DNA from: Neorhizobium galegae
Lineage (GTDB): Bacteria > Pseudomonadota > Alphaproteobacteria > Rhizobiales > Rhizobiaceae
NCBI RefSeq assembly: GCF_021391675.1
Contig: NZ_CP090095.1
Coordinates: 2,299,501 to 2,363,500 of the forward strand
Direction of reading: 5' to 3'
Length of the DNA stretch: 64,000 bases
Of the stretch, positions 52,020 to 56,422 are shown piece after piece; the stretch's first letter is position 1; each line of letters begins with the position of its first letter. The notes beneath the pieces are model-generated. The model made no database searches and had not been told where the DNA came from. It worked only from the letters and a program-made list of their open reading frames with translations. The position numbers and the translations under genes were made by a program.

Positions 52020-53144
52020 CCCGTGTGAGTTCATGCTGAACCGCGACTTGCGGGGCTGCCCAAGCTAACCGGCGTGTCTCATCTGAGCGAGCAGTTTTTT
52101 GCGAAAGACTTCGGCTGGCGTTCGATAGCCAAGACATTTGCGCGGTGTCGCATTGAGCCGATTGCAGATCTCGATCAGATCGGCGTCTGTGACCGACAGT
52201 GGATCGACCTCTCTCGAAAGCCATTTCCTTACCCTGCCGTTGGTGTTCTCGACCGTGCCCTTCTGCCAGGGTGATTGTGGATCGCAGAACCACGTTTGGG
52301 TGCCGATGCTGGCCTGGAGATACGGCCAGTCGGTGAACTCCGTCCCGCGGTCGAAGGTGATCGAACGGCGGGCAAGATGGGGCAGGGACTGCAGGGCTTG
52401 TATGAGGCCGTCCATAACAGGCCGGGACTGCCGATCATTGTTGCGCAGAAAGATCGCAAAGCGGCTGACCCGCTCGACAAGCGACGTCACATTGGCCTTT
52501 CCGAACTTCTTGCGGAACTGGATCAGATCGCATTCCCAATGGCCGAACTGCTTGCGATCGGCAACGACGTCTGGGCGGCGCAGGATGTTCAAGTCCGGGC
52601 TAAACCGTTGGCCGTGCTTGCGTCTGGCGTGTCGTGGTCTGCGCCTGGCACGATGCTCCGGCAAATGCCGCCACAGCTTGATGGCATGGCCGTCGGCCGA
52701 ATAGGCGAACTTGTAGATCGTCTCATGGCTCACCGAGATCGGATGACGTTCCAGCCGCATTCGACCGGCGATCTGCTGCGGTGACCAGCCGTGCACGATG
52801 CGCTCGATCACCGATTGTCGAACGTGTGAGAAGCGCGCAAGCTTCCGCAGCTTCGCACGACGTTCGCAAGCCATCTCATGCGCCGTCACGCAATAATAGC
52901 CGCTGAGATCGGGTATCTGCTTGTCGACGAACATATTGCGTCTGACTTCACGAAAGATCGTCGAACGATGTCGTCCGAGCTTCTCGGCGATGACCGCGAC
53001 ACTGAGGCCAGCCGTCCTCCAGCGAGCAATCTTACGGCGTTCGTCCAATCCAATCTGGGAATAGGTGCGTCTCATTGCGTCTTCCTTGCGGAGTGATAAC
53101 CCATTGGCATCATTCGCAAGTCGCACTTCATCCTTGAACCCACC
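52020..53144 (-). mobile_element. IS30-family insertion sequence
   Basis: The element encloses one transposase gene and is bounded by imperfect ~30-bp terminal inverted repeats. Their shared core GCGACTTGCG lies at 52043-52052 (left) and as its complement at 53115-53124 (right). Outside each core, the left arm (GTGTGAGTTCATGC-TGAACC) and the right arm (GGTGGGTTCAAGGATGAAGT) match with one gap. The outer limits and target duplication cannot be set by eye to the base. The right end lies about 15 bp from the dif-like site. Confidence 0.8.
52065..53075 (-). CDS. IS30-family transposase
   Basis: The 336-aa DDE transposase begins with the IS30 HTH (YSQIGLDERRKIARWRTAGL, VIAEKLGRHRSTIFREVRRN). The catalytic triad is visible: Asp in GHWECDLIQF, Asp in ITFDRGTEFTDW, and Glu in WQKGTVENTNGRVRKWL. 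It ends EVFRKKLLAQMRHAG, the usual IS30 ending. The frame is intact, so the element may be active. The start is taken as ATG 53075 (MRRTYSQ); the frame continues open upstream to a GTG at 53126. Confidence 0.95.
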   Translation of the reverse strand: MRRTYSQIGLDERRKIARWRTAGLSVAVIAEKLGRHRSTIFREVRRNMFVDKQIPDLSGYYCVTAHEMACERRAKLRKLARFSHVRQSVIERIVHGWSPQQIAGRMRLERHPISVSHETIYKFAYSADGHAIKLWRHLPEHRARRRPRHARRKHGQRFSPDLNILRRPDVVADRKQFGHWECDLIQFRKKFGKANVTSLVERVSRFAIFLRNNDRQSRPVMDGLIQALQSLPHLARRSITFDRGTEFTDWPYLQASIGTQTWFCDPQSPWQKGTVENTNGRVRKWLSREVDPLSVTDADLIEICNRLNATPRKCLGYRTPAEVFRKKLLAQMRHAG

Positions 53145-53158
53145 CCGATACGATACAA

Positions 53159-53186
53159 ATATCGCATAAGGTAAATTATGGAACTA
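53159..53186 (+). other. dif: dif-like XerC/XerD recombination site (candidate chromosome terminus)
   Basis: The 28-bp site consists of an 11-bp left arm ending CGCATAA, a 6-bp spacer GGTAAA and an 11-bp right arm beginning TTATG. This is the arrangement of the E. coli dif site (arm ending GCGCATAA, 6-bp spacer, arm starting TTATGTTAAA). The inner parts of both arms match; the outer bases diverge. The KOPS octamer GGGNAGGG changes strand here: left copies are on + (11 against 1), right copies on - (4 against 0), so both sides point toward this site. Confidence 0.75.
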
Positions 53187-53249: not shown

Positions 53250-54071
53250 TCAGAGATCAAGAGCAACCTCGAACGCGAGACCGTCATAGGCCGGTTCGAC
53301 ATGCTGCGGCGTCTGCGCCATCACCGTGTCGTAGTCGAGCGGAAGATGCATATGCGTCAGGATCGCGCGTTTCGGCGCAAATTTGGCGATCCATTCGAGC
53401 GACTGTTCGAGCGACAGATGGCTCGGGTGATATCTGTACTGCAACGTGTCGATGATCAGCACGTCGAGCCCGCCGAGCCTCGAGACGCTCTCAGGCGGAA
53501 AGTCGCTGACGTCGCTGCAATATGCCACGTCGCCGATCCTGAAACCCAGCGAATGGATGTCGCCATGCACCTGCAGATGCGGCAGGAAACGGATCGGTCC
53601 GCCCGGCCCGTCCACGACGATCGGCTCGTCCATGGTCTCGATCAGGAACGGCCGGACGATCGGCGGGTAATTGCCGCCCGGCGGCGTTTCCAGGCAATAA
53701 CCGAACCCCTGGCGGATTCGGTCCATGGTGACCGGATCGGCATAGATCGGGATGCGATGGTGCTGCAGGATGAAATAACCGCGCAGGTCGTCGATGCCGT
53801 GCAGATGATCCGCATGGGCGTGGGTATAGAGAACCGCATCGACCCGCTGCACATTGGCGGAGATCATCTGTTCGCGAAAGTCGGGACCGGTGTCGATGAC
53901 CACCACGGTGCTGCCGCCATCGGGCGCGATCTGCTCGACCATGAAGGCGGCACGCGTGCGGCGGTTCTTCGGGTTATTCGGATCGCAGGCGCCCCAGTCG
54001 CCATTCAGCCTTGGCACGCCGGGCGACGACGAGCAGCCAAGAATGGTGAAGCGTCGCCGATACCTCGCCAC
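53250..54071 (-). CDS. MBL-fold metal-dependent hydrolase (PhnP-like)
   Basis: The 273-aa protein is a metallo-beta-lactamase-fold hydrolase with the HxHxDH motif in LYTHAHADHLHGIDDLRG and further metal ligands in HSLGFRIGDVAYCSDVSDFP and ILTHMHLPLDYDT. It resembles PhnP/cyclic phosphodiesterase-like enzymes found beside tatD and metG in rhizobia. The start is GTG 54071, 3 bp after the restored tatD stop, so the two are coupled. It is the last gene of the rlpA-tmk-metG string. Confidence 0.9.
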   Translation of the reverse strand: MARYRRRFTILGCSSSPGVPRLNGDWGACDPNNPKNRRTRAAFMVEQIAPDGGSTVVVIDTGPDFREQMISANVQRVDAVLYTHAHADHLHGIDDLRGYFILQHHRIPIYADPVTMDRIRQGFGYCLETPPGGNYPPIVRPFLIETMDEPIVVDGPGGPIRFLPHLQVHGDIHSLGFRIGDVAYCSDVSDFPPESVSRLGGLDVLIIDTLQYRYHPSHLSLEQSLEWIAKFAPKRAILTHMHLPLDYDTVMAQTPQHVEPAYDGLAFEVALDL

Positions 54072-54074
54072 AGG

Positions 54075-54858
54075 TCAGAGCCTCGGCATCTTGGAGAAGA
54101 TGCGGAACGCGTTCTCCGTGGTAACCTTGGCTATTTCCTCGTAGCTGACGCCCATGCATTCGGCGAGCACCTCGGCCGTATTGACCACATAGGAAGGCTC
54201 GTTGCGTTTGCCGCGCCAGCGCTTCTGGCGCCAGATAAGGCGCGTCGGTCTCGACCAGCAGCCGGTCGAGCGGCACGGTTTTGGCGATCGCGCGCAGGTC
54301 TTCCGACTTCGGGAATGTCAGGATGCCTGAGAACGAGACGTAACCGCCGAGCTCGATGCCGATGCGGGCAAGCTCTGCGCCGGACGAGAAGCAATGCAGG
54401 ATGAAAGGGAAGGCCCCCTTCCCGCTTTCGCTCGTCAGGATCTCGCCCATGTCATCGTCGGCGCTGCGGCTGTGAATGACAAGCGGCAGACCGGTTTCCC
54501 GGGCGGCGGCGATATGGCGGGTCAGCCCGGTCTTCTGGTCGGCCGGCGTCTGCGTGTCGTAGAAATAGTCGAGCCCGGCCTCGCCGATCGCGACGATCTT
54601 CTGATGCGCATTGGCGAGCCGCACCAGGTCTTCCGTCTGGATGTCCAGCTCTTCGCCGGCATTGTTCGGATGTGTTCCGACCGAGCAGAACACCGACGGA
54701 TATTGCTCGGTGAGAGCCAGCAAGCCGTCGAGTTTTCGCACCCGCGTCGAGATCGTCACCATCTGGCCGACGCCGGCCTCGTGGGCACGCGACACGATCG
54801 CGTCGCGCTCCTCGGCGAAATCGGCAAAATCCAGGTGGCAATGGGTATCGATCAGCAT
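54075..54858 (-). pseudogene. tatD: TatD-family DNase/hydrolase, frameshifted
   Basis: The N-terminal ~210 residues are a good TatD: IDTHCHLDFADFAEERDAI with the first metal site, then AIGEAGLDYFYD, LPLVIHSRSADDD and LLVETDAPYLAP. After DAPYLAP the frame is lost. One base to the side, it continues as KRWRGKRNEPSYVVNTAEVL and ends KMPRL at 54075, the usual TatD C-terminus. A single extra base near 54224-54227 accounts for this. It is either a mutation or a sequence error. The downstream MBL gene starts 3 bp after the restored stop, which supports the repaired reading. Confidence 0.85.
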
Positions 54859-54868
54859 GGATAAGGCC

Positions 54869-56422
54869 TTATGCGCTCGCTTCCGACGCCACATAACGCG
54901 GGAAGACCGGCGTCGGGGCTTCGAGCGGCGTGCCGGGCTTCAGGCGACCGGCTTCGCCAAGCGCCGCAAAATCCCGCTTATCGGCCGGAGAAGCCACGAG
55001 ATCGAGCAGCTTGGCCGACGAGTCCGGCATGAAAGGTTGCAACAGGATGGCGATCTGGCGCACGACTTCCGCCGTGACGTAAAGCACCGTGCCCATGCGG
55101 GCCGGATCGGTCTTTTTCAGCACCCACGGCGCCTGCGCCGCAAAATAGCGGTCGGTGTCGGAAACGATACCGATGATCGCCGCAAGAGCGCGGTTGATGA
55201 GCTGCTTGTCCATTTCCTCGCGGCAGATGGCGATCAGGCCGTCGGCAGCCGCAAGCAGTTGCCTGTCGGCATCGGTGAGCTCGCCCGGTTCCGGAACATG
55301 GCCGTCGCAATTCTTGACGATCATCGACAGCGAACGGCTTGCAAGGTTGCCGATGCCGTTGGCCAGATCCGCATTGACGCGGGTGGCGATCAGTTGGTCG
55401 TTGCAATTGCCGTCCTGGCCGAAGGAAATCTCGCGGCAGAGATAATAGCGCACGTAGTCGAGCCCGAACTTCTCCAGAAGCTCGAACGGATCGACGACAT
55501 TGCCGACCGACTTCGACATTTTCTCGCCGGCATTCAGCACGAAGCCGTGGGCAAAGACGCGCTTCGGCAACGGCAGCCTGGCCGACATCAGGAAGGCCGG
55601 CCAGTAGATCGCATGGAAGCGGATGATGTCCTTGCCGATGATATGCACGTCCGCCGGCCAGTATTTGGCGCGCGGGCCGTTCGGGTCTTCCATGTAGCCG
55701 GTCGCGGTGAGGTAGTTGGTCAGTGCGTCGACCCAGACATACATGACATGCGCCGGATCGTTGGGTACCTTGATACCCCAATCGAAGGTTGTGCGCGATA
55801 CCGACAGGTCCCGCAGGCCGGATTTCACGAAGGAGATCACCTCGTTGCGGCGCTCGTTGGGGCCGATGAAATCCGGGTTTTCCTCGTAATGCTTCAGCAG
55901 CTTGTCGCCGTATTCGGAAAGCTTGAAGAAGTAGCTGGACTCCTCAACCCACTCCACCGGCGTTCCCTGCGGCCCGTAGCGGACGCCATCGCGGACCGAC
56001 GTTTCGTCCTCGGCATAAAACGCTTCGTCGCGCACCGAATACCAGCCGGCATAGGTGTCCTTGTAGATGTCGCCATTGTCGGCCATGCGGTTCCAGATGT
56101 TCCTGGAGGCCTCGTGGTGGCGCGGCTCGGTGGTGCGGATGAAATCGTCGTTGGACGCGTTGAGTAGCTTGCCCATGGCCCGGAATTCACCCGAATTGCG
56201 CTCGGCAAGCGCTTCCGGCGTAATGCCTTCGGCGCGCGCCGTCTGCTGCATCTTCTGGCCATGTTCGTCCGTGCCGGTCAGGAAGAAGACATCCTTGCCG
56301 TCCAGGCGCTGAAAGCGCGCCATGGCATCCGTCGCGATCAACTCATAGGCATGGCCGATATGCGGCTTGCCGTTCGGGTAGGAAATCGCAGTGGTGATGT
56401 AATAGGGCGTCTTGTCGGACAT
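54869..56422 (-). CDS. metG: Methionyl-tRNA synthetase
   Basis: MetRS charges initiator and elongator tRNA-Met. The 517-aa enzyme has the HIGH motif ([20 protein letters not shown]), the KMSKS loop ([18 protein letters not shown]) and the anticodon helix bundle. It is the short form without a C-terminal tRNA-binding domain, and the zinc knuckle Cys set is reduced. Length is normal for alphaproteobacteria. The ATG at 56422 follows GAGTGCCC; a GTG three codons upstream is possible. holB lies 104 bp upstream, with a hairpin between. Confidence 0.96.

Follow-up and report, generated by a model that had tools for sequence, protein, structure and literature searches.

An IS30-family insertion sequence beside the dif site of Neorhizobium galegae and a clade of relatives that probably chooses dif as its landing site

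Introduction

Insertion sequences that land beside dif have been described in the IS1202 family, whose targeting of dif is already published (PMC10132070). The ISAjo2 group (ISNCY), termed "dif site hunters," lies on the XerC side of dif or pdif, in one orientation, on chromosomes and plasmids alike, and its members combine a TnsB-like transposase of 441-457 aa with a length of about 1.5 kb, a distance of 5 bp from the XerC arm and a 5-bp duplication (PMC10132070). The same source gives this spacing and duplication for relatives within the family, including Rhizobium ISRel10 and ISRel26, which are found at TTATGGAAC sites, and suggests contact with bound XerC for IS1202-family elements (PMC10132070). 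A second point of comparison is E. coli IS30, which picks hot spots or its own ends; its hot spots are described as near-palindromic sequences rather than dif, its duplications measure 2 bp, and its tandem head-to-tail copies abut with a 2-bp spacer between the ends (PMC9333248). A third is Tn7, which at attTn7 (named in PMC10132070) has one conserved, harmless site per replicon.

Here we analyzed a 64,000-nucleotide stretch of the chromosome of Neorhizobium galegae (C1:2299501-2363500; hereafter the window, to which coordinates without a contig name refer). The genome comprises three contigs, C1 (4,675,558 bases), C2 (1,254,988 bases) and C3 (118,640 bases), for a total of 6,049,186 bases. 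The original prediction had pointed to a candidate dif site in this window. It had made no mention of the IS30-family element that adjoins the site and that is the more informative feature of the two. We give a probability of about 0.85 to the reading that the predicted 28-mer is the chromosomal dif and that the adjoining element belongs to a clade choosing dif as its landing site. The element and its clade are likely a second family of dif-directed insertion sequences; in open-licence PubMed Central, we found no printed account of IS30-family targeting of dif.

Results

The dif site and the probable replication terminus

The 28-mer at 53159-53186 (C1:2352659-2352686) reads ATATCGCATAA GGTAAA TTATGGAACTA, and both this reading and a pattern match bear out the predicted 11-6-11 layout with inner CGCATAA and TTATG. 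The site and its neighbor are as follows.

53159..53169, plus strand: XerC-side arm of dif, ATATCGCATAA (pattern match; arms named after the tables of PMC10132070 and after PMC2731167)
53170..53175, plus strand: 6-bp centre of dif, GGTAAA (sequence reading)
53176..53186, plus strand: XerD-side arm of dif, TTATGGAACTA, with TTATGGAAC common to other dif sites of the family
53250..54071, minus strand: MBL-fold hydrolase gene, the XerD-side neighbor of dif (named from reading the sequence rather than from a family search)

Alphaproteobacterial dif sites share with the window site the 11-6-11 layout, the terminus position and the inner CGCATAA and TTATGGAAC, the published A. tumefaciens dif being TAATCGCATAAGATATATTATGGAACTT (PMC2731167); set against these, the 28 bp of the window site match the Rhizobiales dif sequence. 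A search of the 6.05 Mb genome for TNNCGCATAA-N6-TTATG gave a perfect match twice, at the window site and at C2:966195, the dif of the second replicon, and none of the one-mismatch matches across the whole genome looked like dif by eye. Within the Rhizobiaceae, CGCATAA-N6-TTATGGAAC with at most one mismatch is present in 138 of 151 genomes. The window dif also adjoins the same MBL-fold gene as the dif-type sites of related genomes: tblastn matched this gene in 45 of the 268 loci searched, own copy counted, and it lies on the XerD side at at least 33 of 148 surveyed dif sites among the matches listed, which is a lower bound because mostly only 400 bases were covered on that side. Given a sequence pattern widespread in the family and a conserved neighbor, the site is an ordinary Rhizobiaceae chromosomal dif in a conserved place, and in itself has no unusual feature. 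The nearby tatD (53974-54894, minus strand) has an apparent frameshift near 54225, its last third matching two loci of the same genus (L273 and L275) only in other frames; it looks frameshifted, as a pseudogene or through a sequence error.

The genome contains two Xer-type recombinases matching TIGR02224 at 320.9 and 272.5 bits, both below the cut-off of 335.15, a comparison that does not separate XerC from XerD, and two matches over the cut-off to the FtsK_gamma domain, in genes at C1:3640549 and C1:4323360. The octamer GGGNAGGG is the KOPS used for Agrobacterium (PMC12153318), and the two copies closest to the site point toward it.

52380..52387, plus strand: nearest KOPS on the left, within the insertion sequence, toward dif (motif search)
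54416..54423, minus strand: nearest KOPS on the right, toward dif (motif search)

All 16 predicted positions and strands of GGGNAGGG in the window proved exact on recount, with 11 plus and 1 minus on the left and 0 plus and 4 minus on the right, hence the announced 15 motifs toward the site and 1 away. The total of 16 is modestly high (dinucleotide shuffles: mean 8.97, sd 3.13; 4 of 100 reach 16), and the signal is the polarity, not the total count. The strands remain unbalanced at larger scale: over a contiguous 380 kb (C1:2160001-2540000) we counted 36 plus and 3 minus on the left against 3 plus and 25 minus on the right, the cumulative maximum falling between C1:2351880 and C1:2353916, that is, between the two motifs flanking the site, while of twenty 20-kb samples over C1, the ten reaching to 2.18 Mb gave 40 plus and 5 minus and the ten starting at 2.40 Mb gave 3 plus and 17 minus. 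GC skew changes here as well, with its maximum at C1:2356887, 4.2 kb from the site, and dif lies at 50.3% of contig C1, the 4.68 Mb chromosome. The KOPS flip, the skew maximum, the 50.3% position, the dif sequence and the MBL-fold neighbor all support the proposal that the window spans the replication terminus. Judging from these sequence features, the 28-mer is very likely the working dif of the chromosome, where joined daughter chromosomes would separate. The dif-type site of C2 lies at the KOPS flip of its own replicon (left 8 plus and 0 minus, right 3 plus and 8 minus, over about 56-60 kb each side), 598 kb from repC, half of the replicon being 627 kb.

An IS30-family element adjoins dif

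On the XerC side, the window holds the following features.

52024..53144, minus strand: insertion sequence of the IS30 family (1121 bp), with its left terminal repeat facing dif (copy comparison; dif-side boundary +/-1 bp)
52065..53126, minus strand: transposase ORF, 353 aa from the first GTG (NF033563 and Pfam matches)
52021..52023, no strand: target-site duplication CCG, far side (flank comparison)
53145..53147, no strand: target-site duplication CCG, dif side (flank comparison)
53145..53158, no strand: native 14-bp linker between the insertion sequence and the XerC arm, ending in TACAA, five bases that are also present beside the orthologous dif of L273, from the same genus

The ORF matches NF033563 (transpos_IS30) at 260.8 bits against a cut-off of 80 and has the Pfam domains HTH_38 and rve; by our own reading, the motifs HWECD at 196, FDRGTEF at 258 and KGTVENTN at 289 would carry the DDE catalytic residues D, D and E. 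To judge from relatives, translation probably starts at the ATG of MRRTYSQ, about 17 codons in. The NF033563 match rules out an IS1202-type identity, and no ISNCY model was among the NCBIfam matches of the 353-aa ORF. Likewise, we rejected a placement of the IS end at TGTAG, 5 bp from the XerC arm, because about 13 loci have no TGTAG and 3-bp duplications put the end at GGT. The KOPS at 52380, one of the 11 left plus motifs, falls inside the element, and the IS bodies of relatives (see below) carry a KOPS toward dif in 41 of 51 cases and away from dif in 0 of 51. These motifs are probably a single inherited codon stretch of the transposase gene, not independent evidence, and a KOPS so placed keeps the element compatible with FtsK direction.

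The genome carries four full copies of the element: the C1 dif has one, the C2 dif a tandem pair, and the fourth lies at a dif-like site on C3. The C2 pair (G000:C2:963941-966180) is arranged head-to-tail, ...CTCACA being followed directly by GGGTTC... with no spacer and without the outer GGT, and only the inner copy touches the linker. The C3 copy adjoins ACCTCAGATAA TAAGTA TTATGGAACCG, a site that we term dif-like only, since repC lies 17 kb away, the replicon measures 119 kb and the KOPS evidence concerns C1 and C2 only. A 9-bp repeat flanking this copy was considered as its duplication and is more likely native, GCT being the duplication. A 135-bp IS remnant at C2:155974 has no dif-like core within the 3.1 kb examined.

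Most scored loci of the transposase lie at a fixed distance from dif

We scanned the best 80 of 140 relatives, taken at one genome per species and sharing 66-98% identity, together with the three own replicons. After setting aside 7 of these 83 loci without a 5' end and 5 at a contig edge, 71 were scored for a dif core, defined as 12 or more of 15 conserved positions, with distances taken from the IS motif GGGTTC. The results show a dif core at fixed spacing in 51 of the 71 loci (48 of them outside the own genome), at 16 nt in 30, 17 nt in 20 and 18 nt in 1, and the XerC arm faces the element in all 51. Equally high scores at other positions occurred 7 times in 222,115, one per locus with dif further out. 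Target duplications of 3 bp, most frequent when the element is bounded as GGT...ACA, were found at 20 of 69 loci, compared with 5.0 on average and at most 11 in 2000 re-paired controls.

The remaining 20 loci comprise 8 with a displaced or irregular dif (further out in L032, L054, L065, L074, L077, L088 and L106; in place, with a 7-bp centre, in L048), 9 cut by contig ends, the edge lying directly behind an ISNCY-like end (L037, L041, L055, L062, L063, L070, L080, L084 and L089), and 3 of the 71 in which no dif was found (L046, L079 and L098). Without a XerD arm, L046 and L098 keep a XerC-arm-like sequence, TTATCCGAC and TTACGCGAT respectively, at exactly 16 nt. The plasmid locus L318 is the reverse, its XerD arm matching well and its XerC arm poorly. 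The first two hint that the XerC arm alone may be recognized; the third speaks against this.

The 51 sites amount to 50 different 28-mers, although near-duplicate loci such as L039 and L040 mean that 51 is not the number of independent events. This diversity bears on whether dif could instead travel with the element as a Xer-mobilized cassette, so that the element never came to dif. Xer cassettes (dif modules) are indeed known from the Acinetobacter literature; against such an origin stand the 50 different 28-mers found with a single IS type, the MBL-fold neighbor that the chromosomal dif retains in genomes with and without the element, and the lack of a second dif bordering the element within the window. 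We consider this origin extremely improbable. A site-directed transposon leaves just such a trace: the same side, orientation and spacing at many different dif sequences and on each of the own replicons.

The association falls within one clade among the transposases tested

To delimit the association, 30 further loci were inspected. A dif lies nearby in seven (L282-L284, L286, L288, L292 and L302); L285 and L287 (85%), cut by contig ends, and one copy that begins at a contig start are uninformative. No dif was found at the partial copies L289, L290 and L293 (72-76%), at the pieces L291, L295, L297, L300, L305, L308, L309 and L311 (45-58%; seven of them counted as fragments) or at ten IS30s of 35-41% identity. 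The partial copies and fragments indicate that decayed copies do lie elsewhere or have lost the site. Among ten plasmid loci, a dif-like match was present in L313, L314, L316, L317, L318 and L321, L312 has a dif-like site with a 7-bp centre beside the element, L315 has a divergent dif-like match by eye, and L319 and L320 (34-38%) have no dif-like match. Relatives of 46-57% identity on plasmids of Rhodobacterales and Rhizobiaceae are also found at dif-like sites. Sixteen distant IS30 loci lack the CATAA-N6-TTAY core, apart from a match in L330 that looks like chance. A tree built from 28 dif-associated and 13 other IS30 transposases, with rows and labels hand-chosen by the analyst, separates the two sets at a single branch (support 100/99; none of 500 label shuffles scored so low), and the dif-associated transposases tested form one clade.

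Unrelated ISNCY-type elements share the XerC side

In 36 of the 51 loci, TGTAG or a closely similar sequence opens the linker at 4-6 nt from the XerC arm; by pattern, 15 lack it, two of which (L044 and L101) may be variants. Several of the TGTAG-type loci have a matching ISNCY-type body beyond the IS30 copy. The neighbor elements encode an ISNCY transposase of 451-480 aa (NF033594 at 483-492 bits against a cut-off of 250, for 3 of 3 proteins tested), and with their position 5 bp from the XerC arm and their 5-bp duplication they fit the IS1202 family by these traits. An ISNCY-type element with an exact 5-bp duplication lies between dif and the IS30 element in 6 of the 10 loci examined (L074 TATAT, L077 TTTGA, L088 GTTAT, L106 TTGTC, L313 TGATA and L316 TTGCA), and no exact duplication was found at the other four, L065, L317, L054 and L032. 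An apparent second recurrent IS30 target, ...GCTTTGACA or ...GCTGTGACA plus 5 nt, was discarded, as it is the far end of these nested elements, with exact duplications in six loci. One dif can therefore collect several elements, with an unrelated ISNCY/IS1202-type element using the XerC side at 5 bp.

These linkers raise the question of whether the IS30 clade targets the ends of ISNCY/IS1202-type elements, which would then be the true dif hunters, rather than dif. With 36 of 51 linkers beginning in this way, and with the rest of an ISNCY element on the other side in several, a preference for the ISNCY end over dif is possible at those loci. Yet the linkers of all three own replicons and about ten other loci lack the TGTAG-type end while keeping the distance to the XerC arm unchanged, and 3-bp duplications occur without it (on the transposase strand, CGG at C1, GCA at L043, GGA at L052 and TAA at L061). 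At L088, moreover, the IS30 linker is free of TGTAG, which places the IS30 element first and the entry of the ISNCY element between it and dif later. As an account of the clade as a whole, we regard ISNCY-end targeting as very unlikely.

A survey starting from dif sites

In the converse direction, we surveyed 148 dif sites outside the own genome, among the matches listed for CGCATAA-N6-TTATGGAAC. On the XerC side, these 148 show 11 IS30-type ends 12-19 nt away and 17 ISNCY-type ends at a distance of 4-6 nt; on the XerD side this test found neither type of end (0 of 148 listed). In four more (L190, L191, L274 and L275) the contig edge falls, by eye, within the apparent left end of a distant IS30 group, bringing the IS30 total on the XerC side to 15 of 148 listed, and L279 has an IS30 remnant with no recognizable end. 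An IS30 transposase was detectable nearby for only 4 of the 11 IS30-type ends and for none of the other 7, suggesting that most of the surveyed IS30 ends are decayed copies. Of the 33 listed sites with the MBL-fold neighbor, one has an IS30 and one an ISNCY element, and the other occupied sites are likely on other replicons. In three species of the window's genus, the orthologous dif has different neighbors: the IS30 element in the window, an ISNCY end in L273 and, judging from 32 bases of sequence, a member of the distant IS30 group in L275.

Two observations concern the number of sites per genome. One genome (G015) has one dif-type site apiece on its contigs C1-C4 (L252-L255; 0.16-3.78 Mb). 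Another, of 1.16 Mb, has three dif-like sites within 10.2 kb, one of them inverted (G093:C1:27371, 31779 and 37569; L177, L133 and L178), which could be Xer-flanked modules.

Random insertion followed by selection would also leave copies beside dif, if they survived only there because the terminus is tolerant or the element helpful, and insertion-sequence or transposase genes near dif are in fact common (14.2% of 161 dif sites; PMC2731167). Survival, though, would leave unexplained why 50 of 51 loci agree in side, orientation and a spacing of 16-17 nt, and why the XerD side gives 0 of 148 among the sites listed. We hold selection alone to be very unlikely, and infer that the transposase itself directs the element to dif.

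Discussion

We propose that elements of this IS30 clade would insert in a single orientation on the XerC side, leaving about 13-14 bp between themselves and the XerC arm of dif. The transposase is predicted to read the XerC half of dif, perhaps via bound XerC. This would match the choice of IS30 between hot spots and its own ends (PMC9333248): dif would play the part of the hot spot, and the C2 tandem pair that of an end-targeted product.

Comparison with the known systems places the window element apart from each of them. Like the IS1202-family dif hunters, it uses the XerC side of dif in one orientation, on the chromosome and on further replicons; compared with the ISAjo2 type, it is of the IS30 family, with a 353-aa ORF, a length of 1121 bp, a distance of 14 bp and a 3-bp duplication, and is not an ISAjo2-type element. 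With E. coli IS30 it shares the transposase family, while differing in target; the C2 pair resembles the active IS30 dimer apart from the missing spacer, and the duplication length that fits best is 3 bp, as against 2 bp in IS30. Like Tn7, it would use one conserved harmless site per replicon. The target duplications of the IS30 family span a range that includes 3 bp. Tn7 requires TnsABC and TnsD, in contrast to the single transposase gene of the window element.

The presence of two unrelated transposase families on the same side of dif suggests a shared cue, most simply the XerC-bound half-site, which is testable. For the IS30 clade, docking on XerC would extend by analogy the contact proposed for IS1202-family elements (PMC10132070), as both families use the XerC side.

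In practical terms, such IS ends mark dif sites and can serve annotation, nested insertions explain contig breaks at replication termini, and the clade offers a natural system for site-specific insertion near the terminus. Because dif is kept by most XerCD-reliant replicons, reading it would give an element a safe place to land on chromosomes, chromids and plasmids; each replicon with a Xer site is predicted to be a harmless address, and plasmids are predicted to spread the element. Tentatively, and at somewhat short of even odds, we suggest that this alphaproteobacterial IS30 clade has settled on dif, its transposase docking on the half of the site that XerC occupies and inserting the element at a set distance beyond it. 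The unrelated IS1202 family would have converged on the same habit, and dif may then be a shared docking port that lets several mobile elements colonize each Xer-resolved replicon of a cell while leaving it intact.
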